Assembly (NCBI RefSeq): GCF_022968135.1
Contig: NZ_JALJRA010000011.1
Span: forward strand, 1-64,000
Direction of reading: 5' to 3'
Length of the DNA stretch: 64,000 nt
From: Pseudorhizobium tarimense
GTDB lineage: Bacteria; Pseudomonadota; Alphaproteobacteria; Rhizobiales; Rhizobiaceae
The notes beneath the pieces are model-generated. The model worked only from the letters and a program-made list of their open reading frames with translations, was not told where the DNA came from and did no database searches. Made by a program: the position numbers and the translations under genes. This document shows positions 3,649 through 58,002 of the stretch, in pieces (positions within the stretch are counted from its first letter, which is position 1; each line of letters opens with the position of its first letter).

Positions 3649-3724
3649 TCGTTGTACCGTCCTGGTGCGAGTCTACCTCTAGTCTTGCATCCAACGTCAC
3701 CCGAAGGAAGGGGGAGGGCCGGAT

Positions 3725-3750
3725 CTTAAAATTATTACAAACTTAAAATT
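3725..3750. promoter_or_regulatory. AT-rich direct repeat, candidate MarR operator of the aminobenzoate genes
   Basis: CTTAAAATT occurs twice (3725-3733 and 3742-3750), 17 bases apart start to start, in the divergent region between the hydrolase and the CoA ligase. The second copy is part of AAACTTAAAAT (3739-3749), found again base for base in the promoter region of the monooxygenase/reductase operon (18098-18108, opposite strand). In a GC-rich genome this sharing suggests a common operator, probably for the MarR protein at 18237. Confidence 0.45.
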
Positions 3751-3866
3751 TCTCTCTTGCCACCCGCTCGGACAGGTGCTTTTCTGGAGAAAAGGCAAAA
3801 ATGCCGCGGCCGCTGCACCGGAGAAATTCCGAGCGGCGGACCAGAAGAACGCATGGGAACTCGACG

Positions 3867-5495: not shown

Positions 5496-5669
5496 GGCGG
5501 CGCATGTCGGGAAATCTGGTGTCCCGCAGCTTGGGCTGTGGACGTTCTTTTGCAAGTGTGGAAGGTATCAGCAATACCGAACGGTGATGATCCGAGCGGA
5601 AATCCGGCAGCGAGATCGAGGGGTCCGCGCCCGGGGATGGGACAATAAGAACAACTGGGAGTTCGAAAA

Positions 5670-6806: not shown

Positions 6807-6815
6807 GGCTGCGCG

Positions 6816-7739: not shown

Positions 7740-7746
7740 GGGCGTG

Positions 7747-8721
7747 ATGCTGACCCGCGAAACCATCGTCAACATTGTCCTGGCTGCGCTGCTGCTGGCA
7801 GTCCCGCTCGCTGCCAATGCTTCCGGGCAGCCGTTCTACGTCACGATTGCGACGCGCGTTGCCATCTTGGCGCTTGCGGCAACCGGCCTCAACCTTGCTC
7901 TTGGCCTCGGGGGACTCGTGTCCTTCGGCCATGCAGCCTTCTTCGGGATCGGCGGCTATGCTGCCGGCATCCTGGCCAGCCATTCCTTTTCCGGCGAGCC
8001 GCTGCTCTTCGGCCTGTCCGGCACGAAGCAGATGCCGCTGATCTGGGTGGTGGCCATGCTCGTCGCGGGGCTGGTTGGGCTCTTGATCGGCACGATCAGT
8101 CTGCGGACGTCAGGCGTCTACTTCATCATGATCACGCTGGCCTTCGCGCAGATGGTCTACTACTTCGCCATTTCCTGGCCAGCCTATGGCGGCGAGGACG
8201 GCCTTTCGATCCTGGTGCGCAACCAGTTCGCAGGCGTGAACACGATGAAGCCGGTGAGCTTCTTTCTGATCTGCTATGTGCTGCTGATGCTCGCCCTTGG
8301 CCTCTTCGTGCTGGTCCGTGGATCCCGTTTCGGCTCCGCCTTGCAGGCGGCCCGCCAGAACGAGGTCCGGGTCGCGACGGTCGGGATCGCGCCTTACCGC
8401 ATCCGCCTGACGGCCTTTGCCATCTCCGCCGCGATGACGGGTTTGGCTGGCGCTTTATATGCCGATCTCAACCGCTTCGTCAGTCCGTCCATGCTGTCCT
8501 GGCATATGTCGGGCGAACTCATCGTGCTGATCATCCTCGGTGGTACCGGGCGGTTGTTTGGGCCTCTCGCGGGTGCCGCGCTGTTCGTCATCTTCGAATA
8601 TCTCCTCGGTGGATTGACGGAGCGGTGGCAGTTTTTCCTCGGGCTCATCCTGCTCGCCACCGTGCTCTTTGCGCGGGGCGGGCTTTTGGGGCTGCTGGCC
8701 GGAAAGGCCCGTCATGGCTGA
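7747..8721 (+). CDS. Branched-chain-type ABC importer permease (LivM family)
   Basis: Second inner-membrane permease, about 324 residues. It shows the LivM core: ATGLNLALGLGGLVSFGHAAFFGIGGY near the start and a later ATPase-contact loop ALQAARQNEVRVATVGI. The ATG at 7747 is preferred because GAGG lies six bases upstream; an alternative ATG at 7732 would overlap livH by eight bases but lacks a ribosome site. It partners the LivH-type protein to form the channel. Confidence 0.9.
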   Translation: MLTRETIVNIVLAALLLAVPLAANASGQPFYVTIATRVAILALAATGLNLALGLGGLVSFGHAAFFGIGGYAAGILASHSFSGEPLLFGLSGTKQMPLIWVVAMLVAGLVGLLIGTISLRTSGVYFIMITLAFAQMVYYFAISWPAYGGEDGLSILVRNQFAGVNTMKPVSFFLICYVLLMLALGLFVLVRGSRFGSALQAARQNEVRVATVGIAPYRIRLTAFAISAAMTGLAGALYADLNRFVSPSMLSWHMSGELIVLIILGGTGRLFGPLAGAALFVIFEYLLGGLTERWQFFLGLILLATVLFARGGLLGLLAGKARHG

Positions 8722-9463
8722 GCCGGTTCTTGAACTCTCCGATCTCGTGAAGAACTTCGGCGCGCTGAGGGCGACGGATCATGTTTCGATCGACCTGAAG
8801 CCGGGCGAGATCCACGCGTTGATTGGGCCGAACGGCGCGGGGAAGTCCACGCTGATCCACCAGATATGTGGCACGGTCAGGCAAGATTCCGGGACGATCC
8901 GCTTTGCAGGTCAGGACATCGGCCATCTCGGCGTAGCAGAGCGTTCGCGCCTTGGGCTTGGCCGCACCTTCCAGGTGTCCTCGCTTGCGCCGGAGTTTTC
9001 GGCTTTGCGCAACGTGATGCTGGCCGTCCAGGCGCAGCAGGGAACGAGCTTTGGTTTCTTCAAGCCGGTGATGCGCGACGCTTCCTTGATCGATCGCTCC
9101 ATGGCTATGCTCAAACGGGTTGGCCTGCAGGACCGGGCGCGTCTTGCGGCCGCCGAGCTCTCCCACGGCGAGCGCCGGCAGTTGGAGATTGCAATCGCTC
9201 TTGCATTGAACTCGAAGGCCTTCCTGCTCGACGAGCCGATGGCCGGCATGGGGCCGGAAGGATCGAAGTCCCTGACAGGGTTTCTCGACACCCTTCGGCA
9301 GGAAGCGCCAATCCTGCTCGTGGAGCACGACATGGATGCGGTTTTCGCACTGGCGGATCGGATTTCGGTGCTCGTCTACGGCCGCATCATCGCCACCGGG
9401 ACAGTAGAAGAGATTCGGCGTGATCCCGCCGTAAGGGCCGCTTATCTGGGAGATCACGCCTGA
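8714..9463 (+). CDS. Branched-chain-type ABC importer ATPase (LivG family)
   Basis: ATP-binding subunit of 249 residues. Walker A is GPNGAGKST, the signature region reads LSHGERRQLEIAIAL, Walker B is AFLLDEPMAGM and the H-loop is VEHDMD, all as in LivG. The ATG at 8714 overlaps the end of livM by eight bases; an in-frame upstream start at 8669 lies inside livM and was not used. It would work as a heterodimer with the following LivF-type protein. Confidence 0.92.
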   Translation: MAEPVLELSDLVKNFGALRATDHVSIDLKPGEIHALIGPNGAGKSTLIHQICGTVRQDSGTIRFAGQDIGHLGVAERSRLGLGRTFQVSSLAPEFSALRNVMLAVQAQQGTSFGFFKPVMRDASLIDRSMAMLKRVGLQDRARLAAAELSHGERRQLEIAIALALNSKAFLLDEPMAGMGPEGSKSLTGFLDTLRQEAPILLVEHDMDAVFALADRISVLVYGRIIATGTVEEIRRDPAVRAAYLGDHA

Positions 9464-10146
9464 TGTTGCTCGACGTCTCGAAGATCGAAGCGTCCTATGG
9501 TGCAAGCCAAGCGCTGTTCGGGGTGGACCTCGCGGTTGCGGAAGGCGAGGCTGTCGCACTGATGGGCCGCAACGGCATGGGCAAGACGACCACCATCAGG
9601 GCGATCTGCAACCTTAATCCGCCACGCGCTGGGTCCGTCCGGCTGGCGGGTACGGACCTGAAGGGAAAACCGTCCCATCGCGTCGCAAAGCTTGGAATCG
9701 GGCTGGTGCCTGAGGGGCGTCGCTGCTTCCCCAATCTGACGGTGCACGAGAACCTGGTTGCAGCCGCGCGACCGGGAGCCTGGACGCTCGACCGCGTGAA
9801 TGTACTTTTCCCGCGTCTCGCGGAGCGCCATGCCCAAATGGCGCGGTCGCTTTCGGGCGGTGAACAGCAGATGCTGGCAATCGGGCGGGCGCTGATGACA
9901 AACCCGCGTCTGCTGATCCTCGACGAAGCCACCGAAGGTCTCGCGCCCGTCATCCGGCAGGCTATCTGGGCAGCGATCCGCAAGCTGAAGGCAGAGGGGC
10001 TTTCAATCCTGGTGGTCGACAAGACGCTGTCCGAACTTCTACCAGTCGCAGACCGCTGCGTGATCCTCGAGAACGGCAGGAGCGTCTGGCAGGGCCCGCC
10101 GGCCGCATTGACCGCTGATCTGCAGGACCGCTATCTGGGTGTCTGA
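9463..10146 (+). CDS. Branched-chain-type ABC importer ATPase (LivF family)
   Basis: ATP-binding subunit of 227 residues with Walker A GRNGMGKTT, signature LSGGEQQMLAIGRAL and Walker B LLILDEATEGLAP, typical of LivF. The H-loop position reads VVDKTL instead of the usual E-H/Q-x, that is Lys where His or Gln is expected, a variation worth noting. Its start overlaps the livG stop (TGATG). The gene ends inside the 3' end of the convergent hydroxyacyl-CoA dehydrogenase gene, overlapping it by 16 bases. Confidence 0.9.
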   Translation: MLLDVSKIEASYGASQALFGVDLAVAEGEAVALMGRNGMGKTTTIRAICNLNPPRAGSVRLAGTDLKGKPSHRVAKLGIGLVPEGRRCFPNLTVHENLVAAARPGAWTLDRVNVLFPRLAERHAQMARSLSGGEQQMLAIGRALMTNPRLLILDEATEGLAPVIRQAIWAAIRKLKAEGLSILVVDKTLSELLPVADRCVILENGRSVWQGPPAALTADLQDRYLGV

Positions 10147-25429: not shown

Positions 25430-25442
25430 GGGGAGTTAAGTC

Positions 25443-27611
25443 TTGAACATCCGATCTGAGAGCGTACCCCCAAGCAGGGCGCCGCTGCCCGGTGGTGGTA
25501 ACTTTATGCTGGCTCCAGCCGACCCAAGGCTCGAGGATTCCTTTGAGAAGATTGATCGGGCAATCCAAGTTTGCTTGCGAGTGGCTGATGAGCCGCCTGC
25601 TGGCAAGGCTTTATCTCCTGATCAACGGGATGCCCGTGAGCAGTCGGAGCATCAAGACGTTCCCGACGGCGAATTCATTTCAGTCGATGAAGTGGCGCCG
25701 GAGGACGTTGGCGTAGAGGCGACTACTGCGCGCGACGATACTCCTCGTGCGAAGACAGCTGAGGGAATGACAACGATAGACGGAGAATGCGGGCCGATCC
25801 TTGCGAAGGGCGGTCGGGAGTCAGGCAAGCCTTTTTCCTCGGGCGGCGGCAAGGGTTCAGGCAATGGAGATGGAACGTTCCACAAACGTCTGGGCCCCAT
25901 TGATTTCGACGCCAGCCTGAAGGCGGCGGTTAAGGCGGTGCGTCACAACCTTGCGATCGTAATGTTGTTCACCGTGATCAGCAACATCCTGGTGCTCGCC
26001 ATTCCGATTTACCTGTTCCAGATCTCGGATCGGGTGCTGACCAGCCGCTCTATCGAAACGCTGGTTATGCTCACGGTTATCATCGTCGGAGCTATTCTGC
26101 TGCAAGCGATGTTCGACGCGTTGCGCCGCTTTATCCTGATGCGAACTGCTGTCGAGGTGGCGGCCAACTTGGGAGCTCCGATCCTTGGTGCAGCAGCGCG
26201 CGCCTCGCTGCAGGGGTCGGGCAAGGAATATCAGACGCTGGGTGACCTGCAGCAAGTACGGTCCTTCCTCGTGTCGCGGACTCTGCTCTCTTTCCTGGAT
26301 GCTCCGATCGCGCCGCTATTCGTGACCGCAGTCTTCCTCATTCACGTCGACCTCGGCATAATCGTGGTTGCAACGGCTATAGTCCTTCTCATTCTGACGC
26401 AGATCAACCAGAAGCTCACGGCCACACCGTTCGCCGAGGCGAACACCGCACAGGTAAAGGCCAATCTTCACGTAGAATCGATGTCTCGCAACTCGCAGAT
26501 CATCAATGCGCTGGCGATGATACCCGAGGCCGTCCGCATTTGGGGAAGAGACACCGCAAGTTCCCTGCGTGCGCAAGTCGTGGCGCAGGATCGCAACATC
26601 ATGATGGCTGCACTCTCCAAGGCGGTTCGCCTACTGACGCAGGTAGCCCTGCTCGGGTGGGGTGCCTTCTTGTCGCTGGAGGGGCAATTGACGGGAGGGA
26701 TGGTCATTGCCGCGTCGATCATCGCAGGGCGAGCTCTGGCTCCGATAGAAGGCGCGATCGAGGGATGGAACCAGTATAGCCAGGCACGTGCTGCATATGG
26801 CCGGATCACGGCGCTCCTTACGTCCTCGCCCCTTGCCTTCGAGCGCTTGAGCCTGCCCAAGCCTGAAGGTCGGCTGGATGTGGAAAGGCTACTTTACGTC
26901 CCACAGGGAACTAAGCGGGTGGTCCTGAACGGCCTGTCTTTTTGCTTGCAGCCAGGCGACTCCCTGGCCGTTATAGGCAATTCGGGTGCCGGCAAGACGA
27001 CGCTAGGGAAGATGCTGGTGGGTTCAATCCTGCCAACATCGGGCAGCGTCCGGCTTGATCTCATGGATCTGCGTAACTGGGACCAACGACAGTTCGGTGA
27101 GAATATCGGCTACCTCCCGCAGGACGTTCAGCTATTCCCCGGAACGATCAAGGCGAACATTGCTCGGATGCGGACTGATATCGACGACGAGGCAATCTAT
27201 CGGGCTGCCGTTCTCGCGGATGTCCATGAGATGATCGCCAATCTACCGCACGGGTACGAGACCATGGTCGCGGCTGATGGCTCACCCTTGTCAGGAGGGC
27301 AGAAGCAGCGGATCGCGCTCGCGCGGGCATTCTTCGGCGATCCGCGTTTCGTTGTTCTCGATGAGCCGAACTCCAATCTCGATGGCGCCGGCGATGCGGC
27401 ACTGAAGCGTGCTCTGACCCACGCCAAGGAGCACGGTATAACCGTGGTGACCATCACGCAACGTCCGGAACTGCTTCAGACGGTCGACAAGATCCTGCTT
27501 TTGGTCAACGGGACGGTCGCTCTGTTCGGCATGCGCCAGGACGTCCTTCAGGCATTGTCCAGCCGCGGCATCAGCGTGGAGTGCGGTTCCTTCGGCCATC
27601 AGCTGCAGTAG
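25443..27611 (+). CDS. Type I secretion ABC transporter (permease-ATPase, PrtD-like) with N-terminal extension
   Basis: Inner-membrane exporter of 722 residues. Residues 1-155 are a hydrophilic, Pro/Gly/Asp-rich extension with no C39 peptidase motif. Residues about 165-440 form the transmembrane domain (for example LAIVMLFTVISNILVLAIPIYLFQ). The ATPase has Walker A GNSGAGKTT, Q-loop GYLPQDVQLF, signature LSGGQKQRIALARA and Walker B FVVLDEPNSNLD. The core matches PrtD/HlyB-type T1SS exporters that lack the C39 domain. The TTG start follows GGGGGAG at seven bases; an internal ATG at 25507 is an alternative. Stop is 10 bases before the HlyD gene. Likely cargo is the two upstream repeat proteins. 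Confidence 0.92.
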   Translation: MNIRSESVPPSRAPLPGGGNFMLAPADPRLEDSFEKIDRAIQVCLRVADEPPAGKALSPDQRDAREQSEHQDVPDGEFISVDEVAPEDVGVEATTARDDTPRAKTAEGMTTIDGECGPILAKGGRESGKPFSSGGGKGSGNGDGTFHKRLGPIDFDASLKAAVKAVRHNLAIVMLFTVISNILVLAIPIYLFQISDRVLTSRSIETLVMLTVIIVGAILLQAMFDALRRFILMRTAVEVAANLGAPILGAAARASLQGSGKEYQTLGDLQQVRSFLVSRTLLSFLDAPIAPLFVTAVFLIHVDLGIIVVATAIVLLILTQINQKLTATPFAEANTAQVKANLHVESMSRNSQIINALAMIPEAVRIWGRDTASSLRAQVVAQDRNIMMAALSKAVRLLTQVALLGWGAFLSLEGQLTGGMVIAASIIAGRALAPIEGAIEGWNQYSQARAAYGRITALLTSSPLAFERLSLPKPEGRLDVERLLYVPQGTKRVVLNGLSFCLQPGDSLAVIGNSGAGKTTLGKMLVGSILPTSGSVRLDLMDLRNWDQRQFGENIGYLPQDVQLFPGTIKANIARMRTDIDDEAIYRAAVLADVHEMIANLPHGYETMVAADGSPLSGGQKQRIALARAFFGDPRFVVLDEPNSNLDGAGDAALKRALTHAKEHGITVVTITQRPELLQTVDKILLLVNGTVALFGMRQDVLQALSSRGISVECGSFGHQLQ

Positions 27612-45784: not shown

Positions 45785-45819
45785 CCCTTTTCACCCTCCC
45801 ACCAATGCTGGAGATCACC

Positions 45820-47112
45820 ATGAAGCTCTACCGTCGTACACTCATGAGCGGGCTTGTCGCCACGCTTGCCTTCTCGGGTCTTGCCAAGCCCGTTTTCGCC
45901 GAGGAGATCACGCTCGAGGTTCTCTACAATCTGCCGGGCTTCACGAAATTCCATCAGCCGCTGGCCGATGAATTCATGAAGAACAACCCGGACATCAAGA
46001 TCAACTTCCTTGCGCCGGCGGCAGGCTACAATGAAGGTCAGCAGCAGGTTCTGCGCGCAGCCGTGACCGGCAATCTTCCTGATGTCTACTTCTCCGGCTA
46101 CAACCTGACGGCAGAACTCGTGCATGCGCTCGCTCCGCGCGACCAGATCACAGACCTCACGCCGTTCATCGAGGCGGAAGGCGGCCAATCCTTCCTCGAC
46201 AAGAACTACTCGCCCAAGATGGTGGCGCTCGGCCAGATCGACGGCAAGCAGTACGGCCTGCCGGTCAATGCCTCTTCGCCGATCATGTACATCAACGCCG
46301 ACCTGGTGAAGAAGGCCGGCGGCGACCCGGACAACATGCCGACGACCTTCCCGGAGCTCATCGAGCTTGCAAAGAAGATCCATGCGCTCGATCCGAAGAT
46401 CGCCGGCATGGGCTACGACATCAATGGCTGGCCGGACGACTGGCTGTGGCAGGCCCTGATCTTCCAGCAGGGCGGCAAGCTGGTCGACGAAAGCACCAAG
46501 ACGGTGGCCTTCGATAACGAGATCGGTCTCAACGCACTGAAGCTGACGCGTCAGTTCGTCACCGAAGGCGGCCAGAGCCTGCTCGACTGGGACCAGTCGC
46601 GCCAGCAGTTCGGAGCGGGGCTTACCGGCTTCATCTTCTCTACTCCCGCCCATGTCCAGACAATCGAGGGCCTCGTCGGCGACCGCTTCCCGCTGAAGAC
46701 GGCGACCTTTCCGCTGGACAACCAGGAATACGGCGGCGTTCCGACCGGCGGCAACTCGGCTGTAATCCTGACCCAGGACAAGGCCAAGCAAGATGCGGCC
46801 TGGAAGTATCTGAAGTGGGTCACCGGCCCGGAAGCGCAGAACACCATCGTTCGCATCACCGGCTATCTGCCGACCAACAAGCTCGCCACCGGTTCCAACT
46901 ATCTCGAGCCCTATTACGCGGAACATCCGAATGTGAAGACGGCCTCGCTGCAGGCGGATCGCTCGCTTCCTTGGGCCGGCTATCCGGGCGGTGACTCCGT
47001 TCGCATCTGGCGCACCCAGCGCGACATCATCGGCACCGTGATGCGCGGGGAGGTGTCACCGGAAGACGGACTCAAGCAGCTGGTCGAGCAGACCAATGCG
47101 CTAATGAAGTAA
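45820..47112 (+). CDS. ABC importer substrate-binding protein, UgpB-like
   Basis: Periplasmic binding protein of 430 residues. The Sec signal is MKLYRRTLMSGLVATLAF...PVFA before EEITLEVLYNLPG. Type II extracellular binding-fold features include LPVNASSPIMYINADLVKKAGGDPDNMPTTFPELIELAKK and PTGGNSAVILTQDKAKQDAAWKYLKWV. I chose the ATG at 45820 (GGAG six bases upstream) over 45805, because it starts with a proper signal peptide. Trp/Tyr-rich segments (WPDDWLWQ) would form the ligand pocket. A phosphodiesterase gene directly downstream suggests phosphodiester ligands. Confidence 0.88.
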   Translation: MKLYRRTLMSGLVATLAFSGLAKPVFAEEITLEVLYNLPGFTKFHQPLADEFMKNNPDIKINFLAPAAGYNEGQQQVLRAAVTGNLPDVYFSGYNLTAELVHALAPRDQITDLTPFIEAEGGQSFLDKNYSPKMVALGQIDGKQYGLPVNASSPIMYINADLVKKAGGDPDNMPTTFPELIELAKKIHALDPKIAGMGYDINGWPDDWLWQALIFQQGGKLVDESTKTVAFDNEIGLNALKLTRQFVTEGGQSLLDWDQSRQQFGAGLTGFIFSTPAHVQTIEGLVGDRFPLKTATFPLDNQEYGGVPTGGNSAVILTQDKAKQDAAWKYLKWVTGPEAQNTIVRITGYLPTNKLATGSNYLEPYYAEHPNVKTASLQADRSLPWAGYPGGDSVRIWRTQRDIIGTVMRGEVSPEDGLKQLVEQTNALMK

Positions 47113-47186
47113 GCCGAGCTCGCAAGGCTTGCGCTGTTGTGGGGCCTGCGTGGCCCCGCAATCCTTTGGACGAAGAGATTGGCTCC

Positions 47187-47987
47187 ATGAAAATCATCCA
47201 GATCACCGACACCCACCTGATGCCCTCAGGCATCGTCGTCAACGGCGTGGATCCAGAAAAGCAGTTGCGCGCCGCGGTGGCCGATATCGTCGAGAAGCAC
47301 GGGGATGCCGATCTGGGGGTCATGACCGGTGACCTTTGCAACTTCGGCGATTCGGAAGCCTATGCGCTGCTGAAGGACATCCTGGCGCCCGTCCCCTTCG
47401 AGATGCGCCTTCTGGTCGGAAATCATGACGACCTGCCAAACTTCCGCTCCGCCTTTTTCGACCATCCGGTGGACGACCTCGGTTTCATCCAGTCGGTGCT
47501 GGACACACCTTATGGGCGGTTGCTGTTTCTGGACAGCCACGAACCGGGGACAATCGGCGGCGTCTATGACGACGATCGCTTGGGTTGGCTGGAGAGCGCT
47601 CTGGAAGGGGCAGGGGAGCAGCCGGTGACGGTCTTCATCCATCATCCGCCGATGGATTGCGGAATTGCGCATTTTCAGCATATCGGGATGCATGACGACG
47701 GACGTCTCATGAAGCGGTTAGCGGCCCATCCGGCTGGGGTACGCCACATCGTCTTCGGCCACATCCATATGCCGCTTGCAGGAACGACCGCGGAGGGCAT
47801 CGCCTTCAGCTCCGGCCAAGCCTGCGCCCACCGCTTCATCACTGATCTCGACGCGCCCGCACCGCTCTGGACTGGCGGTCATCCCTGCTACCGCATCCTT
47901 ACGCTGGATGATTCCGGGTTCCGTGCCTTCGCAGTGGAGGTAGGGGAGGTGTCAACAGCGCAGGCGGCGGTATGCCTTGGGCCATGA
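47187..47987 (+). CDS. Calcineurin-type phosphodiesterase, GpdQ/CpdA-like
   Basis: Binuclear-metal phosphoesterase of 266 residues. Metal ligands appear in order: ITDTHLMP (D-x-H), MTGDLCNFG (GDxx), VGNHDD (GNHD), FIHHPP and FGHIHMPLAG (GHxH). This is the class III cyclic-nucleotide/glycerophosphodiesterase group. ATG at 47187 starts directly with the first strand MKIIQITD; the longer in-frame start at 47139 adds no motif. Following a PHO-box-driven Ugp-like importer and preceding glycerol genes, hydrolysis of glycerophosphodiesters to sn-glycerol 3-phosphate is the best guess; cAMP phosphodiesterase is the alternative. Confidence 0.82.
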   Translation: MKIIQITDTHLMPSGIVVNGVDPEKQLRAAVADIVEKHGDADLGVMTGDLCNFGDSEAYALLKDILAPVPFEMRLLVGNHDDLPNFRSAFFDHPVDDLGFIQSVLDTPYGRLLFLDSHEPGTIGGVYDDDRLGWLESALEGAGEQPVTVFIHHPPMDCGIAHFQHIGMHDDGRLMKRLAAHPAGVRHIVFGHIHMPLAGTTAEGIAFSSGQACAHRFITDLDAPAPLWTGGHPCYRILTLDDSGFRAFAVEVGEVSTAQAAVCLGP

Positions 47988-48274: not shown

Positions 48275-49054
48275 ATGTTTCTGAGCCCTCGGCAGTCGGA
48301 GATCGTCGAGCTTGCGAAGTCGCAGGGCCGCGTTCTGGTCGAAGAACTGGCGGTGCGTTTTTCCGTCTCACCGCAGACAATTCGCAAGGACCTGAACGAT
48401 CTCTGCGATCAGCGGCATCTCAACCGTATCCACGGCGGCGCGACGTTTCCAAGCAGCACGGAAAACATGCGGTATGAGGCCCGCAGACAGATCGCGGCCC
48501 AGGAAAAACAGGCGATCGGAATTGCCGCCGCAGCCCTCATCCCGAACAACGCCTCGCTCTTCATCAATATCGGCACCACCACCGAAGCCGTGGGCGAGGC
48601 ACTGGTGGACCATCACGAGATGATGGTCATTACCAACAACATAAACGTGGCCAATCGTTTGCGGCTTCTTCCGGCGATGGAGGTGGTCATCACCGGCGGT
48701 GTAGTGCGCGGATCTGACGGAGGAATTGTGGGGGAGGCGGCCGTGGACTTCATTCGGCAGTTCAAGGTCGACTTTGCCGTGATCGGTGCCTCGGCGATCG
48801 ACGCCGATGGGGCGCTACTCGATTTCGACTTTCGCGAAGTGAAGGTCGCGCAAGCGATCATCGCTAACGCCCGCCACGTCATTCTCGTGGCTGATTCCAC
48901 CAAGTTCGAGCGGACGGCGCCGGTGCGGATTGCCCAGATCGAACAGGTCCACAGCTTCATTACCGACCAATGCCCGCTCCCGTCTTTGCGTCGGCTCTGT
49001 ACGGAGAACAACGTGAAGCTGATCGAGACGGCTATCGTGAGTAACCGCTTGTAA
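48275..49054 (+). CDS. glpR: DeoR-family repressor GlpR
   Basis: A 259-residue DeoR regulator. N-terminal helix-turn-helix: LSPRQSEIVELAKSQGRVLVEELAVRFSVSPQTIRKDLNDL followed by the NRIHGGA hinge. The C-terminal sugar-phosphate isomerase-like sensor shows FINIGTTTEAVGEAL, MVITNNINVANRL, ITGGVVRGSDGGIVG and ADSTKFERTAPVRIA. Known GlpR proteins repress glycerol genes and are released by glycerol 3-phosphate. It lies 62 bases before glpD on the same strand, with phased TCGT repeats between. Confidence 0.9.
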   Translation: MFLSPRQSEIVELAKSQGRVLVEELAVRFSVSPQTIRKDLNDLCDQRHLNRIHGGATFPSSTENMRYEARRQIAAQEKQAIGIAAAALIPNNASLFINIGTTTEAVGEALVDHHEMMVITNNINVANRLRLLPAMEVVITGGVVRGSDGGIVGEAAVDFIRQFKVDFAVIGASAIDADGALLDFDFREVKVAQAIIANARHVILVADSTKFERTAPVRIAQIEQVHSFITDQCPLPSLRRLCTENNVKLIETAIVSNRL

Positions 49055-49116: not shown

Positions 49117-50652
49117 ATGGCAGCATCCGAGGTGAGTGTGACTGAGCCTGACACCGACATCTTCGTCATCGGCGGCGGCATCAACGGATGCGGCATAGCG
49201 CGCGACGCTGCTGGCCGTGGCTATAGCGTCGCACTTGCCGAGATGAGCGATTTTGGCTCGGGCACCTCCTCGGGCTCCACCAAGCTCATTCACGGGGGGC
49301 TCCGCTACCTCGAGCATTACGAGTTCCGCCTCGTGCGTGAAGCGTTGATGGAGCGGGAGGTGCTGTGGGCGATGGCGCCGCACATCATCTGGCCGATGCG
49401 TTTCGTACTGCCCTTCCAAAAGGGCGGGGTGCGTCCCGCATGGCTGATCCGTCTGGGCCTGTTTCTCTACGACCATCTCGGTGGTCGAAAGCTCTTGCCG
49501 CCGACGAAGAGCCTCGACATGCGGCGCGATCCCGCAGGAAAGCCGCTCAAGCCGCTTTTCACCAAGGCCTTTGAGTATTCCGACGGTTGGGTGGATGACG
49601 CACGCCTGGTGGTGCTGAATGCACGAGACGCCGCCCAGCGCGGGGCTCACATCCTTCCGCGCACGAAGGTGACACGGGCAGAGCAGCGCGATGGCGTCTG
49701 GTCGATCGAGTTGGAGGACACCCGCATTGGTGCGCTTCGTCGCATGACCGCGCGCATGCTCGTCAATGCGGCGGGTCCCTGGGTTGATCAGGTGCTGTCC
49801 AAGGCCATGGGGCAGAATGGCCGGCGGAGAGTCCGTCTCGTGCAAGGCAGCCACATCGTCGTGAAGAAGAAGTTCGACGATCCACGCGCCTACTTCTTCC
49901 AGAACCCGGACAACCGGATCATTTTCGCCATCCCCTACCAGCAGGATTACACGCTGATCGGCACCACCGACCGAGATTTCGACGGCGACCCGAAGAAGAT
50001 CGAGATCAGCCAGGAAGAGGTGGGCTACCTGTGCTCGGCCGCCAGTGAGTACTTCCTCGATCCGGTCCAAACGGAAGACATCGTCTGGACCTACTCGGCC
50101 GTGCGCCCGCTCTATGACGATGGTGCATCGAAGGCGCAGGAAGCAACCCGTGATTACGTCCTGAAGATGGACCAAAGTTCAGGCGCTCCGCTGCTGAACG
50201 TCTTCGGCGGCAAGCTCACGACCTACCGGCGGCTCGCCGAGCATGCGCTCGAGAAGATCGGAGAGGCGATTGGTGCGAAGGGCGCACCGTGGACGGCGGG
50301 CAGCCACTTGCCGGGCGGCGAGTTTCCGGCCACCGGCTATGAGGAGCAGGTGCGGCGGCTTCTGCAGTTGTTCCCATTCCTGATCGAATCCCATGCGCGC
50401 CGCCTGATCCGCGCCTATGGCACGGACACGTTCGAAATGCTGGCGGGCGCCAAGTCCCCAAAGGATCTCGGAACGTTGTTCGGCGGTGATCTCTACGCTC
50501 GTGAAGTCGACTGGCTGATCGAGCGCGAATGGGCCTACAGTGCTGATGACATTCTCTGGCGCAGGACGAAACAGGGCCTGCGCCTGACCACAGATCAAGT
50601 GCATACCTTGGAGGAGTACATGGCTGCGGTGCCAGCGAGGTCGGCAGGCTAG
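49117..50652 (+). CDS. glpD: Aerobic glycerol-3-phosphate dehydrogenase GlpD
   Basis: FAD-dependent, membrane-associated dehydrogenase of 511 residues that oxidises sn-glycerol 3-phosphate to dihydroxyacetone phosphate and passes electrons to quinone. FAD motif DIFVIGGGINGCGIARDAAGRG at the N-terminus; SGSTKLIHGGLRYLEHYEF; later NVFGGKLTTYRRLAEHALEKI; and a C-terminal DAO_C domain to RTKQGLRLTTDQV. The ATG at 49117 has only a weak ribosome site; a GTG at 49138 is possible. Starts the glpDSTPQUV run. Confidence 0.95.
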   Translation: MAASEVSVTEPDTDIFVIGGGINGCGIARDAAGRGYSVALAEMSDFGSGTSSGSTKLIHGGLRYLEHYEFRLVREALMEREVLWAMAPHIIWPMRFVLPFQKGGVRPAWLIRLGLFLYDHLGGRKLLPPTKSLDMRRDPAGKPLKPLFTKAFEYSDGWVDDARLVVLNARDAAQRGAHILPRTKVTRAEQRDGVWSIELEDTRIGALRRMTARMLVNAAGPWVDQVLSKAMGQNGRRRVRLVQGSHIVVKKKFDDPRAYFFQNPDNRIIFAIPYQQDYTLIGTTDRDFDGDPKKIEISQEEVGYLCSAASEYFLDPVQTEDIVWTYSAVRPLYDDGASKAQEATRDYVLKMDQSSGAPLLNVFGGKLTTYRRLAEHALEKIGEAIGAKGAPWTAGSHLPGGEFPATGYEEQVRRLLQLFPFLIESHARRLIRAYGTDTFEMLAGAKSPKDLGTLFGGDLYAREVDWLIEREWAYSADDILWRRTKQGLRLTTDQVHTLEEYMAAVPARSAG

Positions 50653-50692: not shown

Positions 50693-51772
50693 ATGCTGGA
50701 ATTGCGAAACGTCGAGAAGGTTGTCGGGGAGGAGGTTCACATCCGTCCGACGAACCTTGTTCTGGAACGGGGAACGTTGAACGTCCTGCTGGGGCCGACG
50801 CTCTCTGGCAAGACGTCGCTCATGCGGCTGATGGCCGGGCTCGACGTGCCGACGTCCGGTTCCGTCCATTTCGACGGCAAGGAGGTCACCGGCGTTCGCG
50901 TGCAGGATCGCAACGTTGCGATGGTCTACCAGCAGTTCATCAATTACCCGGCGATGACGGTGTACGAGAACATCGCCTCGCCGATGCGGATTGCCGGCAA
51001 GGACAAGGCAACGATCGAGCGGGAGGTGCGAAAGGCGGCAGGTCTCCTGAAGTTGACGCCCTATCTCGGGCGGACGCCGCTCAACCTCTCCGGTGGTCAG
51101 CAGCAGCGCACGGCGCTTGCTCGCGCGCTGGTCAAGAACGCCAGCCTCGTCCTGCTGGATGAGCCACTCGCCAACCTCGATTACAAACTGCGGGAAGAAC
51201 TGCGCGAAGAGCTTCCCCGCATCTTCGCGCAATCAGGCGCCGTCTTCGTTTACGCGACCACCGAACCGACCGAGGCGCTGCTGCTTGGCGGTAGAACCGC
51301 GACACTGAGTGAGGGGCGGGTAACCCAGTATGGCGAGACGATCGACGTCTACAGACGCCCCGGCGACTTGCTTACGGCAAGGACATTCGCCGATCCGCCC
51401 TTGAACACGGTCGCGATGACAAAGAAGGGACAGGTCCTTCACGTCGACGGTGAGCAGGCCATTCCCCTGCCGCCGCATCTGGGTGCCGTTCCCGATGGCG
51501 AGGTAACCATCGCCTTCCATCCGCACCACCTGTCTGTGCACCCGGTTTCAGATGCCTCAGCCATGATCCCGGTAAAGGTCCTCGTCTCCGAGATCGCAGG
51601 CTCAGAGAGCTTCGTGCATGTCGACTATCGGGGAAATCGCTGGGTGATGCTGCAGCATGGGGTGCACGACGTGGAGGCGGACAGCAGCATGGACGTCTTT
51701 CTCGACAGCCGGCACCTGATGGCCTTCAATGCCGACGGCCACTCCCTTAACATGAGTTCGGGAGGCGTATGA
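50693..51772 (+). CDS. glpS: Glycerol ABC importer ATPase GlpS (H-loop His replaced)
   Basis: ATPase of 359 residues in the rhizobial glycerol importer. Walker A GPTLSGKTS, Q-loop MVYQQFINYPAMTVYENI, signature LSGGQQQRTALARAL and Walker B LVLLDEPLANLDYK are canonical. The switch region reads VYATTEPTEALLLGG where family members have VTHDQ-E-A, so the H-loop His is replaced by Thr. The paired GlpT has the reverse defect (see there). C-terminal TOBE-type part from about residue 230. Its stop overlaps the glpT start. The gene name follows the Rhizobium glycerol locus, not E. coli use. Confidence 0.88.
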   Translation: MLELRNVEKVVGEEVHIRPTNLVLERGTLNVLLGPTLSGKTSLMRLMAGLDVPTSGSVHFDGKEVTGVRVQDRNVAMVYQQFINYPAMTVYENIASPMRIAGKDKATIEREVRKAAGLLKLTPYLGRTPLNLSGGQQQRTALARALVKNASLVLLDEPLANLDYKLREELREELPRIFAQSGAVFVYATTEPTEALLLGGRTATLSEGRVTQYGETIDVYRRPGDLLTARTFADPPLNTVAMTKKGQVLHVDGEQAIPLPPHLGAVPDGEVTIAFHPHHLSVHPVSDASAMIPVKVLVSEIAGSESFVHVDYRGNRWVMLQHGVHDVEADSSMDVFLDSRHLMAFNADGHSLNMSSGGV

Positions 51773-52842
51773 TGGCCCGGATCACGCTCGACCACATCCG
51801 CCACTCCTATGGACCGAAGCCCACGGAGGCGAAGGATTATGCGCTGAAGGAGGTGCATCACGAATGGGAGGACGGCGGCGCCTACGCCCTTCTTGGTCCA
51901 TCCGGCTGCGGCAAGACAACCCTGCTCAACATCATCTCCGGCCTGCTGACGCCGTCTGAGGGGAAGATCCTCTTCGACGGTACCGACGTCACCAACCTGC
52001 CGACCGAGAAGCGCAATATAGCCCAGGTCTTCCAGTTTCCGGTCATCTACGACACGATGACCGTTTACGACAATCTGGCCTTCCCGTTGCGCAACCGCAA
52101 GCTGCCGGAGGCCGATGTCGACCGGCGGGTCAACGAGATCCTGTCGATGATCGACCTTTCGGACTGGGCCAAGCGCAAGGCGCAGGGGCTGACGGCCGAT
52201 CAAAAGCAAAAGATCTCGCTCGGCCGCGGTCTGGTGCGAAGCGACGTTAACGCAATCCTCTTTGACGAGCCGCTGACCGTCATCGATCCACACATGAAGT
52301 GGGTTCTGCGATCGCAGCTGAAGCGGCTGCACCGGCGCTCGGGCTTCACGATGGTCTATGTCACCCACGACCAGACGGAAGCGCTTACATTCGCCGACAA
52401 GGTCGTGGTGATGTACGAGGGCGAGATCGTCCAGATCGGCACGCCGGTCGAACTCTTCGAGCGGCCGCGCCACACCTTCGTTGGCTACTTCATCGGCTCG
52501 CCGGGCATGAACATCATGCCGGCGGCGCTCGAAGGATCAGCCGTTGTCGTCGGCAACCAGCAGATTGCGCTGCCGAAGAGGCCGGCGGTTGCATGTGAAG
52601 CGCGGCTTGAACTCGGTATCCGTCCCGAATTCGTGCAGTTGGCACGGGACGGCATGCCGATTGCGATTTCCAAGGTGGAGGACGTGGGGCGCCAGAAAAT
52701 CGTCCGCGCCAGCTTTGAGGGCCATCCGCTGGCGGCCGTCGTGCCGGAAGACACGGAGATTCCAGCTGATCCACGCGTGACCTTCGACGCTGATGCCCTC
52801 AACCTCTACGCCAATTCCTGGCGTGTCGAGACGGGAGCCTGA
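51772..52842 (+). CDS. glpT: Glycerol ABC importer ATPase GlpT (degenerate signature motif)
   Basis: ATPase of 356 residues, partner of GlpS. Walker A GPSGCGKTT, Q-loop QVFQFPVIYDTMTVYDN, Walker B AILFDEPLTVIDPH and H-loop VTHDQTEA are intact, but the signature, LSGGQ in normal subunits, reads LTADQKQKISLGRGL. Thus the ATP site built from GlpT Walker motifs plus GlpS signature is canonical, and the opposite one lacks both H-loop His and signature. TOBE-type domain from about residue 245. Ends two bases before glpP. Confidence 0.88.
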   Translation: MARITLDHIRHSYGPKPTEAKDYALKEVHHEWEDGGAYALLGPSGCGKTTLLNIISGLLTPSEGKILFDGTDVTNLPTEKRNIAQVFQFPVIYDTMTVYDNLAFPLRNRKLPEADVDRRVNEILSMIDLSDWAKRKAQGLTADQKQKISLGRGLVRSDVNAILFDEPLTVIDPHMKWVLRSQLKRLHRRSGFTMVYVTHDQTEALTFADKVVVMYEGEIVQIGTPVELFERPRHTFVGYFIGSPGMNIMPAALEGSAVVVGNQQIALPKRPAVACEARLELGIRPEFVQLARDGMPIAISKVEDVGRQKIVRASFEGHPLAAVVPEDTEIPADPRVTFDADALNLYANSWRVETGA

Positions 52843-52844
52843 CC

Positions 52845-53711
<867 letters not shown>

Positions 53712-53720
53712 GAGGGCACC

Positions 53721-54539
53721 ATGAGCACGTCAGACGCCAAGAGAAGCTGGTCGTGGGTCATCCCCACGCTCTACATCCTGTTTCTGATCCTGCCGATCTA
53801 CTGGCTGATCAACATGAGCTTCAAGAGCAATTCGGAGATCCTCGGAGACTTCTCGCTCTGGCCGCAGCGGCCGACGATTGCCAACTACATGGTGATCTTC
53901 ACGGACCCGTCGTGGTACAACGGATACATCAATTCGATCATCTACGTGGTGATGAACACAGTGATCTCGGTCGCTGCGGCGCTGCCGGCTGCCTACGCAT
54001 TCTCCCGCTACCGGTTCCTCGGCGACAAGCATCTGTTCTTCTGGCTGCTGACCAACCGTATGGCGCCGCCGGCCGTCTTTGCCCTGCCGTTCTTCCAGCT
54101 CTATTCCGCCTTCGGTCTCATTGACACGCATATTGCGGTTGCGATCGCGCACTGCCTCTTCAACGTGCCTTTGGCGGTCTGGATCCTGGAAGGGTTCATG
54201 TCCGGTGTACCGAAGGAGATCGACGAAACAGCCTATATCGACGGTTACTCCTTCCCGCGCTTCTTCGTGAAGATCTTCATGCCGTTGATCGCCTCAGGCA
54301 TCGGGGTTGCCGCCTTCTTCTGCTTCATGTTTTCCTGGGTGGAACTGCTGATCGCCCGTACCCTGACTACGACGGATGCCAAGCCAATTGCAGCGACCAT
54401 GACGCGTACCGTTTCCGCGTCAGGCATGGATTGGGGCGTGTTGGCGGCAGCCGGCGTGCTGACGATCATTCCCGGCGCGCTGGTGATCTATTTCGTTCGC
54501 AACTACATCGCCAAGGGCTTCGCCCTGGGGAGGGTTTGA
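53721..54539 (+). CDS. glpQ: Glycerol ABC importer permease GlpQ
   Basis: Second permease, 272 residues: LPIYWLINMSFKSNSEILGDF near the start, ALPAAYAFSRYRFLGDKHLFF, and EAA loop EIDETAYIDGYSFPRFFVKIFMPLI. Not related to the E. coli periplasmic phosphodiesterase of the same name. Its stop overlaps the glpU start (TGATG). Confidence 0.9.
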   Translation: MSTSDAKRSWSWVIPTLYILFLILPIYWLINMSFKSNSEILGDFSLWPQRPTIANYMVIFTDPSWYNGYINSIIYVVMNTVISVAAALPAAYAFSRYRFLGDKHLFFWLLTNRMAPPAVFALPFFQLYSAFGLIDTHIAVAIAHCLFNVPLAVWILEGFMSGVPKEIDETAYIDGYSFPRFFVKIFMPLIASGIGVAAFFCFMFSWVELLIARTLTTTDAKPIAATMTRTVSASGMDWGVLAAAGVLTIIPGALVIYFVRNYIAKGFALGRV

Positions 54540-54958
54540 TGGCCGCAGCTTTCAAACGCAGCCGCCGCTGGCCGATTGCTCTCGCGGGCGTCGTCGCCGT
54601 TCACGCCATCGTCGTCGTGGCGTTGATCCTGGCACTGCCGGTAGAGGACGGGGAGCGCGACTGGTTTGCGCCTCTGTCCCCCGGCGGGTGGATGGCCTGG
54701 TCCTTCCCGACGGCGGTGTTCTTTCTAACGATCCTGACGCTCCTCGCGCTGATGGCTGTCTGGGAATATGCGCGGCCCGGGGGACATCCGAGGGTCGGCA
54801 TTCTGCGGTTCGAGACGACCCGCGGCGACCGGCTTTTCATCTCGCTGCTGGGATCGGCCTTCATCAATCTCGCATGGCTGGGGCTAACCGGCGCCAGCCT
54901 GTGGTGGTCTCTTGCGCTCAGCCTGGTCTACACTTTTGCGGTGTTCAGGACCGTCTGA
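54539..54958 (+). CDS. glpU: Small membrane protein GlpU (DUF2160-type)
   Basis: A 139-residue integral membrane protein with three likely helices (about 15-35, 52-72, 103-135) and a Trp-rich periplasmic loop (WFAPLSPGGWMAWSFP). Such proteins recur between the permeases and binding protein of rhizobial glycerol importers; its role is unknown, possibly an accessory channel subunit. The ATG at 54539 is chosen because it couples to glpQ; the longer frame upstream lies inside that gene. Confidence 0.8.
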   Translation: MAAAFKRSRRWPIALAGVVAVHAIVVVALILALPVEDGERDWFAPLSPGGWMAWSFPTAVFFLTILTLLALMAVWEYARPGGHPRVGILRFETTRGDRLFISLLGSAFINLAWLGLTGASLWWSLALSLVYTFAVFRTV

Positions 54959-55022: not shown

Positions 55023-56744
55023 ATGCGACGGCATCTTTTGACAACAACGGCAGCGGTGCTGCTCGCCATGACCGGCAATGCCTTTGCCGGGATGGAGGAG
55101 GCAAAGCAGTTTCTCGACGCGGAGATCGGCGACATGTCGGTGCTATCCCGCGCCGAGCAGGAACAGGAAATGCAGTGGTTCATCGATGCGGCACAGCCTT
55201 TCGCCGGGATGGACATCAAGGTCGTTTCGGAAACGATCACGACGCACGAGTATGAATCGAAGGTTCTGGCGCCGGCCTTCACGGCGATCACCGGCATCAA
55301 GATCACCCACGACCTGATCGGCGAGGGTGACGTCGTCGAAAAGCTGCAGACACAGATGCAGTCCGGCGAGAACATCTACGACGCCTATGTCAACGACTCC
55401 GACCTGATCGGTACCCATTGGCGCTACCAGCAGGCCCGCTCGCTGACCGACTGGATGGCGAACGAGGGCAAGGATGTCACAAATCCGATGCTGGATCTGG
55501 ACGACTTCATCGGTCTGAAGTTCACTACGGCACCGGATGGCGATCTCTACCAGTTGCCCGACCAGCAGTTTGCCAACCTCTACTGGTTCCGCTACGACTG
55601 GTTCAACGACGAGAAGAATAAGGCGGACTTCAAGGAAAAGTACGGCTACGATCTCGGCGTGCCGGTCAACTGGTCGGCCTATGAGGACATTGCCGAATTC
55701 TTCACCGGCCGCGAGATCGACGGCAAGAAGGTCTATGGTCACATGGACTACGGCAAGAAGGATCCGTCGCTCGGCTGGCGCTTCACGGACGCCTGGCTTT
55801 CCATGGCCGGCAACGGCGACAAGGGCCTTCCGAACGGTCTGCCCGTGGACGAGTGGGGCATCAAGGTCGACGAGAACTCGCGTCCCGTCGGCTCCTGCGT
55901 TGCCCGCGGCGGTGATACCAACGGGCCAGCGGCGGTCTACTCCATCCAGAAGTATCTCGACTGGATGAAGGCTTATGCGCCGGCAGCCGCACAGGGTATG
56001 ACCTTCTCCGAATCCGGACCCGTGCCGGCTCAGGGCGAGATCGCGCAGCAGATGTTCATGTACACCGCCTTTACCGCCGACATGGTCAAGGACGGACTGC
56101 CGGTGGTCAACGAGGACGGTACGCCGAAGTGGCGCTTCGCCCCGTCGCCGCACGGTGTCTACTGGAAGGAAGGCATGAAGCTCGGCTACCAGGACGTCGG
56201 TTCTTGGACCCTTTTGAAGTCGACGCCAGACGATCGGGCGAAGGCGGCCTGGCTTTATGCCCAGTTCGTCACGTCCAAGACGATCGACGTGAAGAAAAGC
56301 CATGTGGGCCTGACGCTCATTCGCGAAAGCACCATTCAGCATGAGAGCTTCACCGACCGCGCGCCCAAGCTCGGCGGCCTGATCGAGTTCTACCGTTCGC
56401 CGGCCCGCGTTCAGTGGTCGCCGACGGGGACGAACGTTCCGGACTATCCGAAGCTTGCTCAGCTCTGGTGGCAGGCAATCGGTGATGCCTCGTCCGGCGC
56501 CAAGACGCCTCAGGAGGCCATGGACTCGCTTTGCGCCGAGCAGGAAAAGGTCATGGAGCGCCTCGAGCGCGCAGGCGTTCAGGGCGATATCGGTCCGAAG
56601 CTCGCCGAAGAGCATGACCTTGAATACTGGAACGCCGAAGCGGTAAAGGCCGGAAATCTCGCTCCTCAGCTAAAGATAGAGAACGAGAAGGAAAAGCCGA
56701 TCACGGTCAACTACGACGAACTGGTGAAGAGCTGGCAGCAGTAA
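55023..56744 (+). CDS. glpV: Glycerol ABC importer substrate-binding protein GlpV
   Basis: Periplasmic protein of 573 residues, long for this class. The Sec signal MRRHLLTTTAAVLLAMTGNAFA precedes GMEEAKQFLDAEIGD. Binding-fold features include KVVSETITTHEYESKVLAPAF near the start of the mature domain and many Trp/Tyr residues (LTDWMANEG, YQLPDQQFANLYWFRYDWF). GGGAGG lies five bases before the ATG at 55023; an earlier in-frame start inside glpU is rejected. The last gene of the operon, followed by a hairpin. Confidence 0.9.
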   Translation: MRRHLLTTTAAVLLAMTGNAFAGMEEAKQFLDAEIGDMSVLSRAEQEQEMQWFIDAAQPFAGMDIKVVSETITTHEYESKVLAPAFTAITGIKITHDLIGEGDVVEKLQTQMQSGENIYDAYVNDSDLIGTHWRYQQARSLTDWMANEGKDVTNPMLDLDDFIGLKFTTAPDGDLYQLPDQQFANLYWFRYDWFNDEKNKADFKEKYGYDLGVPVNWSAYEDIAEFFTGREIDGKKVYGHMDYGKKDPSLGWRFTDAWLSMAGNGDKGLPNGLPVDEWGIKVDENSRPVGSCVARGGDTNGPAAVYSIQKYLDWMKAYAPAAAQGMTFSESGPVPAQGEIAQQMFMYTAFTADMVKDGLPVVNEDGTPKWRFAPSPHGVYWKEGMKLGYQDVGSWTLLKSTPDDRAKAAWLYAQFVTSKTIDVKKSHVGLTLIRESTIQHESFTDRAPKLGGLIEFYRSPARVQWSPTGTNVPDYPKLAQLWWQAIGDASSGAKTPQEAMDSLCAEQEKVMERLERAGVQGDIGPKLAEEHDLEYWNAEAVKAGNLAPQLKIENEKEKPITVNYDELVKSWQQ

Positions 56745-56925: not shown

Positions 56926-58002
56926 CTATTTGGCGGTGATCGGTCCCGATGAAGGCCCTCTTGAGCGTTTAGCAGCGCCTGAAAGATGCGCCCAACCCGG
57001 TCGCTCGAACAAGAAAACGCCGATGCCGACCTTCTCTGTGATCCACCATAGCACCAGCGGCGAAGTCAGGGCGACGGCCAGAACGACGAGACTTAGCAGG
57101 TTCGGCTCATCAAGGCCGATCCCGAGCAGCAGCGTGCGCGCGATCCCCATCGGGATGACGAAGGCAACATAGACCACCAGCGACTGCGCGCCCAGCTGCC
57201 GCAGCCAGCCTGTTCCGGGAAGACCGACAAGCAGTGAAGCAGCGATGATGATTGCGATCGCACCGGCGAATGCCGCCAACAGATGCAGGCCGGGCAGGGC
57301 GGCCCAGCCCATCTGGATATGCACCGGATCAAGACGGAAGCCGGGGGTGAATACCAGGGTGGCGTTCACCAGCGCCCAAATCAGCAGGATGCCGGCTGCG
57401 GCGGCGCGATGTGTTTGCGTCCAGCTGGCGAGCTGGAAGAGCAGTGGCGCGAAAACGTAGCCTGCGTAGAAGTAGACGAAATAGGCCGCGAACTGGTCGA
57501 TCAGATAGCTGCCGGTGTGGACGGATGAGATCTGTAGCGCCGCAGCGCACGTCAGCGTTGCCCAATGCGGCGCTTTGAGCTCGTGGAGCAGCTTGCTCGA
57601 GAGGCTGAAAAACGCCAGCATGTAGATGAACCACCACACGCCATAGGGCTCCACGGTCGCCAGGGCCAGAGATGTCAGCGCATCGCTCAGATCGTGTTGC
57701 GCCAGCGCGATCTTCAAGATGATGTGGATGCTGGCCCACAACGCGTAGAAGTAGATGTAGTGCACCGCGCGCCGGTCGGCGTAGTCGCGCCAGGACCGAT
57801 CGATAACCTGGCTGAGGAAAAGCCCGGATATAAGGAAAAACTCCGGCATCCGAAAAGGCATAGCGAATGCGATGGTCCAGTGGAGAAAACCGGTTTTCCC
57901 GGTGTCTTCGCCAATGCTTGCTGCGCAATACATGATGACAACGAGAAAGATGGACAGGCCTTTGGCCATGTCCACCCAATCGAGCCGTTGCTTTGCACTC
58001 AT
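56926..58002 (-). CDS. Integral membrane acyltransferase (acyltransferase-3/OafA-like)
   Basis: A 358-residue protein with about ten hydrophobic segments. The N-terminus MSAKQRLDWVDMAKGLSIFLVV has the R-x-x-W-x-D-x-x-K-G start of the family, and FRMPEFFLISGLFLS carries the catalytic-type region. Members transfer acyl groups (often acetyl) to surface sugars or other exported molecules. Neighbours give no substrate clue: it faces the glycerol operon and follows decayed genes. A predicted cytoplasmic tail with KRSRG ends the protein. Confidence 0.8.
   Translation of the reverse strand: MSAKQRLDWVDMAKGLSIFLVVIMYCAASIGEDTGKTGFLHWTIAFAMPFRMPEFFLISGLFLSQVIDRSWRDYADRRAVHYIYFYALWASIHIILKIALAQHDLSDALTSLALATVEPYGVWWFIYMLAFFSLSSKLLHELKAPHWATLTCAAALQISSVHTGSYLIDQFAAYFVYFYAGYVFAPLLFQLASWTQTHRAAAAGILLIWALVNATLVFTPGFRLDPVHIQMGWAALPGLHLLAAFAGAIAIIIAASLLVGLPGTGWLRQLGAQSLVVYVAFVIPMGIARTLLLGIGLDEPNLLSLVVLAVALTSPLVLWWITEKVGIGVFLFERPGWAHLSGAAKRSRGPSSGPITAK

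Follow-up and report, generated by a model that had tools for sequence, protein, structure and literature searches.

GlpS and GlpT, two MalK-type ATPases encoded next to each other in Pseudorhizobium tarimense, probably form an obligate heterodimer in which one composite site hydrolyses ATP and the other holds it, and which powers a glycerol importer. On the sequence evidence, we give this reading a probability of about 75%. The sequence, the gene order, their conservation and a predicted MalK fold are established here for a stretch of 64,000 nucleotides (the window) and for related loci of other genomes.

Gene content and layout of the locus

In the window, glpR and glpD are followed by two adjacent ATPase genes, two permease genes, a gene for a DUF2160 protein and one for a binding protein, which is the gene content of GlpSTPQUV (Table 1). 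The GlpT and GlpQ of this system are distinct from the E. coli proteins of the same names. Gene names follow the operon of Rhizobium leguminosarum, where strain VF39 likewise carries glpR and glpD and then glpSTPQUV (PMC7912956; all articles given by PMC number are cited from excerpts). A copy on an R. leguminosarum plasmid (L304) encodes a GlpS and a GlpT that are 68% and 79% identical to those of the window and bear the same motifs. In this copy and in another locus (L303), glpK lies downstream. In the window, glpK is not directly downstream of glpV, the next large ORF being that of an acyltransferase on the opposite strand (56926-58002); a glpK in that place is a trait of the R. leguminosarum locus and does not define the transporter. 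The gene order of C. metallidurans also departs from that of R. leguminosarum (PMC7912956). Just upstream of glpR are found a UgpB-like binding protein (45805-47112, weak NCBIfam match) and a calcineurin-like phosphoesterase (47139-47987).

Table 1 Features of the glp locus and of a comparator ATPase pair in the window
Feature	Position	Strand	Remarks
LivG/LivF-type (urea/branched-chain amino-acid type) ATPase pair, comparator	8618..10143	+	LSHGE + VEHDM / LSGGE + VDKTL
GlpR, DeoR-type regulator	48275..49054	+	Pfam DeoRC, HTH_DeoR
GlpD, glycerol-3-phosphate dehydrogenase	49117..50652	+	Pfam DAO, DAO_C; L303 and L304 have an annotated glpD in this position
GlpS, MalK-type ATPase	50693..51772	+	LSGGQ and Walker B Glu157 intact; Thr190, Leu37, Val11 altered
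GlpS LSGGQ, codons 132-136	51086..51100	+	trans half of the putative complete site; invariant 161/161
GlpS Thr190 codon, H-loop His position	51260..51262	+	putative degenerate site
GlpT, MalK-type ATPase	51769..52842	+	Walker A/B, Q89, His200, Tyr14 intact; LTADQ, D-loop TVID altered
GlpT LTADQ, codons 141-145, for LSGGQ	52189..52203	+	putative degenerate site; SGG in 0/161
GlpT His200 codon, H-loop of the putative complete site	52366..52368	+	His in 161/161
GlpP, permease	52845..53711	+	BPD_transp_1
GlpQ, permease	53721..54539	+	BPD_transp_1
GlpU, small membrane protein DUF2160, operon marker	54539..54958	+	PF09928, E 9.1e-35
GlpV, solute-binding protein	55023..56744	+	SBP_bac_1

The glpS and glpT reading frames lie on the + strand where a preliminary description of this DNA had placed them, and they overlap by ATGA at 51769-51772. 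The same arrangement was seen elsewhere: in all 160 fetched loci, glpT follows directly after glpS and has the same orientation, with a spacing from 17 bases of overlap to a gap of 40 bases. GlpS and GlpT might in principle pair with other MalK-type ATPases or form homodimers in separate transporters, and partners are at hand, as the genome encodes 27 canonical ATPases, counting its UgpC-like protein and those that share at least 38% identity with it. This is extremely unlikely, given the constant adjacency and order of the two genes in an operon with two permeases and the complementary defects found in every pair.

The specificity of the system is assigned by homology, with some help from induction data in Ralstonia, and GlpSTPQUV is a probable glycerol uptake system. 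In R. leguminosarum, the locus has been assigned to glycerol transport (PMC7912956). In a Ralstonia strain growing on glycerol, glpSTPQV and its neighbours were raised at an average ratio of 38:1 (PMC11223650). The transporter was not essential for growth of C. metallidurans on glycerol (PMC7912956), so its role may differ between hosts.

ATPase motifs of GlpS and GlpT

GlpS carries the Walker A motif GPTLSGKT (residues 34-41), Q80, LSGGQ (132-136) and DEPLANLD (156-163). Its H-loop reads VYATTEPTEA, and in an alignment to solved MalK-type ATPases Thr190 falls opposite the H-loop His. Further changes are Val11 for the A-loop aromatic residue and Leu37 for the middle glycine of Walker A. GlpT has GPSGCGKT (43-50), Q89 and an H-loop with His200 (VYVTHDQTEA), together with LTADQ (141-145) and DEPLTVID (166-173), so that its D-loop is altered to TVID (170-173). 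The catalytic Glu and the Walker A Lys are present in both proteins. The preliminary description had reported a GlpS with LSGGQ and Thr in place of the H-loop His, and a GlpT with the His and LTADQ in place of LSGGQ; both are read directly in the ORFs.

In a composite site, Walker A/B and the A-, Q- and H-loops usually come from one subunit and the signature from the other (PMC7756269). In HlyB, the H-loop also touches the opposite D-loop (PMC6222333). By the usual geometry, site 1 (GlpT in cis, GlpS in trans) is predicted to be complete, as Walker A/B, Q-loop and H-loop of GlpT would meet LSGGQ of GlpS. Site 2 (GlpS in cis, GlpT in trans) would bear every departure, i.e., Val11, Leu37, Thr190, LTADQ and TVID. 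The earlier proposal of one site with all motifs and another without the His and the signature thus agrees with the motifs present. A GlpS homodimer would lack both His residues and a GlpT homodimer both LSGGQ motifs, so only the heterodimer would provide a full site.

Conservation among orthologues

DUF2160 served as a marker of the operon. It was present in 85 of 398 genomes drawn from the phylum, the window's own included, and in none of 14 control genomes. A set of 161 glpS-glpT pairs was assembled. It comprised the pair of the window, 80 pairs from the DUF2160-positive genomes of this draw (84 without the window's own) and 80 from the top of a list of 570 loci that a search with GlpT had given (mostly Rhizobiaceae). 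The last four DUF2160-positive genomes of the draw were added later, as were four plasmid-collection records out of 253 that matched DUF2160, for a total of 169.

The complementary pattern was found in 161 of 161 pairs and, with the added records, in 169 of 169. No pair had both motifs intact. Chance, a sequencing error or an oddity of one strain is ruled out by this agreement. All 169 pairs reflect a single inherited state and do not count as independent events. The pattern fits the co-evolution suggested in the preliminary description; no intermediate pair that would tell the order of loss was found.

Median pairwise identity is 56% for GlpS and 60% for GlpT in the 161 pairs. The H-loop His position of GlpS holds Thr in 156 cases and Ser in five. 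In the signature of GlpT, the three central positions in order are Thr 135, Ser 17, Gly 5 and Ala 4; Ala 155 and Pro 6; Asp 160 and Ala 1. The D-loop of GlpT is TVID throughout (161/161). The Walker B Glu and the Walker A Lys of both subunits and the GlpT His were each found in all 161 pairs, and the composite site that lacks His and signature also takes in all changes of Walker A, A-loop and D-loop.

The middle Walker A Gly is missing from GlpS in 156 of the 161 pairs, and the A-loop aromatic residue in 160 (Phe in the other one), GlpT having its Tyr in all. Such gaps would suit a second site that binds no ATP, with GlpS as a structural partner that lends its LSGGQ to GlpT. We consider this quite unlikely: Gly39, Lys40, Thr41, Q80, D156 and E157 of GlpS are invariant (161/161), which is hard to explain without nucleotide binding.

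Removal of near-duplicates left 81 GlpS and 75 GlpT representatives for the analysis of single columns. Among these, GlpS 190 is Thr in 76 and Ser in five, Asp144 of GlpT is kept in 74 of 75, and TVID in 75 of 75. Conservation is above that of the median column at GlpS 190 and at GlpT 143, 144 and 170-173. GlpT 142 is close to the median and GlpT 145 is more variable; that these two positions of the altered signature are no better conserved than the median column counts against the mechanism proposed below. Most altered residues are tightly retained, however, which points to a preserved function, e.g., in binding ATP. It is common for one paralogue of a pair to degenerate, and the variation at GlpT 142 and 145 could be taken as a sign of relaxed decay after duplication, without function. 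This explanation has next to no probability in view of the conserved altered columns, the intact reading frames and Walker motifs, and the same solution in LivFG and RbsA-type importers (see below).

The most distant pair, that of Nonomuraea (Actinomycetota), has Ala at the GlpS His position and LDAGR in GlpT. Since these residues differ, it is the asymmetry that is kept and not the exact residue. This glpST-DUF2160 operon of Nonomuraea gerenzanensis (L301) is the sole case from outside the Pseudomonadota among the pairs examined; its record, 11.85 Mb long and labelled a plasmid, looks like a chromosome. In five other loci (L136, L139, L140, L144 and L157), GlpS has Gly in the middle of Walker A, Ser for the H-loop His and a changed Q-loop, HQFF, and GlpT has LSPDN. 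Here, degenerate-site residues seem to co-vary between the two subunits, perhaps in one lineage.

Complementary losses in other importers

In the same genome, 152 ATPase domains were examined; they are a part of the whole set, as 150 of 234 first-look candidates were scored and C47:146515 and C50:164763 were left out. Four domains had no aligned segment and were dropped, L165 and L224 among them. The remaining 148 comprise 111 canonical domains, 19 with His and no SGG, 18 with SGG and no His, and none lacking both. Of the two dropped domains named, L224 has LSAGQ with the His present, and L165 is one half of an RbsA-type pair counted below.

The domains examined in this genome include 35 fused or adjacent ATPase pairs. 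In 17 of them, signature and His are intact in both partners, which rules out a general drift of any ATPase pair into asymmetry. We take 13 of these intact pairs to be of a type with Opp/Dpp-like Walker A, three to be ABC-F-looking and one to be of another kind. Among Opp/Dpp ATPases, those of M. tuberculosis carry a degenerate site. The other 18 pairs are complementary and fall into only three families: ten fused RbsA-type proteins (10/10 of this type), seven LivG/LivF-type pairs (7/7) and GlpST. The LivF and RbsA labels are supported by two family searches, among whose matches are all seven LivF-type and all ten RbsA-type proteins.

Outside pairs, two losses were noted. One is in L226, a single-ATPase protein of 585 residues with LSAGQ. 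The other is in a PrtD-type type I secretion permease/ATPase of the window (25440-27608; TIGR01842, 702 bits), which has LSGGQ and the Walker B Glu, and Gln in place of the H-loop His (ITQRP). It has no adjacent partner ATPase; in a homodimer, the His would thus be missing from both sites. The LivG/LivF-type pair of the window (Table 1) has UrtD and UrtE as nearest NCBIfam models, below the cut-off. Its LivF-like partner has Lys at the His position and not the common Gln, as do eight relatives from other genomes (L242-L249).

In other genomes, all 27 LivG/F pairs and all 19 RbsA-type proteins examined show complementary losses, i.e., 46 of 46 systems. Two loci repeating the own genome (L241, L271) and ten weaker matches (L291-L300) were kept out of this comparison. 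Two of 29 LivF loci (L261, L269) were not counted as pairs, with no LivG in the DNA examined. For nine LivG proteins, the domain match was split in two, and signature and His were read from the parts.

For bacterial importers that have a separate binding protein, the preliminary description had considered such asymmetry unusual. This contrast fails, as the same loss occurs in 17 of 17 LivG/LivF and RbsA-type systems of this genome and in all 46 elsewhere. A feature unique to the glycerol importer is likewise ruled out by these pairs. For RbsA and NupO importers, one degenerate site is already in print (PMC11466899). No report of asymmetry in GlpS/GlpT or LivF/LivG was found in the literature searched, most subscription journals lying outside it, and none was met in the excerpts of PMC12136057, PMC10433430, PMC11962113, PMC7658222, PMC6703430 and PMC2821768. 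The literature searched offered no biochemical work on the proposed heterodimer either.

The systems agree in the split itself. In LivG/LivF (HAAT) and in RbsA/NupO (CUT2), one domain has SGG and no His and its partner His and no SGG. LivF-type partners keep the Walker B Glu (36/36), like GlpS. The C-terminal domains of RbsA-type proteins have the Glu in only 21 of 29 and have mostly lost the Walker A Lys, whereas GlpS and LivF types keep this Lys. The catalytic Glu of the degenerate site is thus kept in GlpS, in LivF types and in most RbsA types. Other features differ. GlpT has lost both signature glycines in nearly all orthologues, whereas LivG mostly keeps the second. Unlike LivG/LivF and RbsA-type proteins, GlpS and GlpT carry the MalK regulatory domain.

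Place of GlpST among CUT1 ATPases

The predicted models of GlpS and GlpT (pLDDT 90.2 each) are full-length MalK folds with the C-terminal regulatory domain, and the OB_MalK domain was also found by sequence in GlpT. Foldseek matches were re-compared with the models. GlpS matched 2it1 with a Z of 38.7 (351 residues aligned, 2.9 A) and E. coli MalK (2awn) with a Z of 38.7 (357, 2.9 A). The values for GlpT were 39.2 (348, 2.3 A) and 36.7 (348, 2.7 A), respectively. With scores of 247 and 288 bits, GlpS and GlpT miss the cut-off of 432 bits of the NCBIfam UgpC model (NF008653).

A tree of 100 rows was built by a quick method, without an inferred root; signature, H-loop and Walker A columns were excluded, and D-loop and A-loop kept. 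The 12 GlpS rows form one group (SH-aLRT 100), as do the 12 GlpT rows (100). Both groups, which may or may not be each other's closest relatives, lie inside a CUT1 clade of 49 rows (SH-aLRT 98), apart from LivF, LivG and both RbsA-type halves. The 23 CUT1-like rows were chosen partly by their His-bearing H-loop and were not used as a motif count. Such a count comes from the genome itself. With a limit of 38% identity to the UgpC-like protein of the window, 27 of 27 ATPases have both motifs (query included, GlpT excluded); GlpS is below this limit. Judged by these comparisons, GlpST stands out by lying inside the CUT1 clade, where these 27 UgpC-like ATPases are canonical. This position apart from LivF, LivG and RbsA would be explained most simply if the complementary losses arose separately within CUT1.

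Six weaker DUF2160 matches (L305-L310) were checked for intact GlpST orthologues and turned out to be sister CUT1 operons, not orthologues. All six have a diverged DUF2160-like gene and a single canonical MalK-type ATPase, and the operons of L305 and L308 have two permeases and a binding protein. Their neighbours include dehydrogenases, and in L305 (operon at 3280-11238) also an FGGY sugar kinase. They are perhaps polyol transporters.

Proposed mechanism

We infer the heterodimer, its ATP occupancy, single-site hydrolysis and the substrate. The GlpS-GlpT heterodimer would drive the permeases GlpP and GlpQ, with GlpV as the binding protein on which the glycerol importer GlpSTPQUV depends. Walker A/B, Q- and H-loop of GlpT, together with LSGGQ and the D-loop of GlpS, would form the site that binds and hydrolyses ATP. 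At the other site, Walker A/B of GlpS and LTADQ/TVID of GlpT may hold ATP as a structural clamp, with slow or absent hydrolysis. One ATP would then be spent per transport cycle.

That GlpS retains its Glu and Walker A Lys suggests that site 2 binds nucleotide. With the Walker B Glu in place, residual or slow hydrolysis at this site is possible. Both composite sites might even hydrolyse ATP, the one with Glu157 and Thr190 of GlpS and TADQ of GlpT being a slower active site, in a transporter that is kinetically asymmetric and spends two ATP. The invariant Walker A Lys, Q-loop Gln and Walker B Glu of GlpS (161/161) would allow this, and the H-loop His is seemingly non-essential in Pdr5 (PMC6222333). 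We nevertheless hold it to be rather unlikely, as the loss of the signature goes with that of the His in each of the 169 pairs, and MalK H192R has less than 2% of ATPase activity (PMC6222333). Loss of the H-loop His is thus strongly inactivating there, which makes hydrolysis at the GlpS site doubtful. Hydrolysis at a single site of GlpS-GlpT is also not obvious for a CUT1 importer, because mutating a single MalK subunit reportedly impairs transport severely (Davidson and Sharma, in 1997).

MalFGK2 and UgpABCE, CUT1 type I importers with a homodimeric ATPase, have in common with GlpSTPQUV a solute-binding protein, two permeases and MalK-fold ATPases. In contrast to their plan of one gene and two identical sites, GlpST has two ATPase genes and one degenerate site. 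The exporters TM287/288, TAP and ABCC likewise combine one consensus and one degenerate composite site (PMC7756269). As in these exporter-style sites, the non-canonical signature of GlpT would face the degenerate Walker A of GlpS. Loss of the Walker B Glu has been called the hallmark of degenerate sites in exporters (PMC7544095), and other patterns exist, e.g., in ABCG5/G8 (PMC7756269). This hallmark is absent from GlpS (Glu in 161/161), and GlpST imports and does not export.

Significance

The three importer families suggest a rule: His and signature are dropped at one composite site, and never both in one subunit. It is an even bet that this is a recurrent importer-type degenerate site that has arisen at least twice, in GlpST within CUT1 and in LivFG/RbsA elsewhere, and that GlpSTPQUV is a natural one-ATP importer of the MalK type. 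If so, it would work with one ATP in a subfamily where engineered loss of a single site reportedly cripples transport. The number of ATP hydrolysed per cycle by a type I importer is an old question. It is said to have been argued from engineered mixed dimers of MalK and HisP, by Davidson and Sharma in 1997 and Nikaido and Ames in 1999. GlpST, a probable natural heterodimer of the MalK type that is widely conserved, would allow mutation of one site at a time, and the sister operons L305-L310 could serve as symmetric controls.
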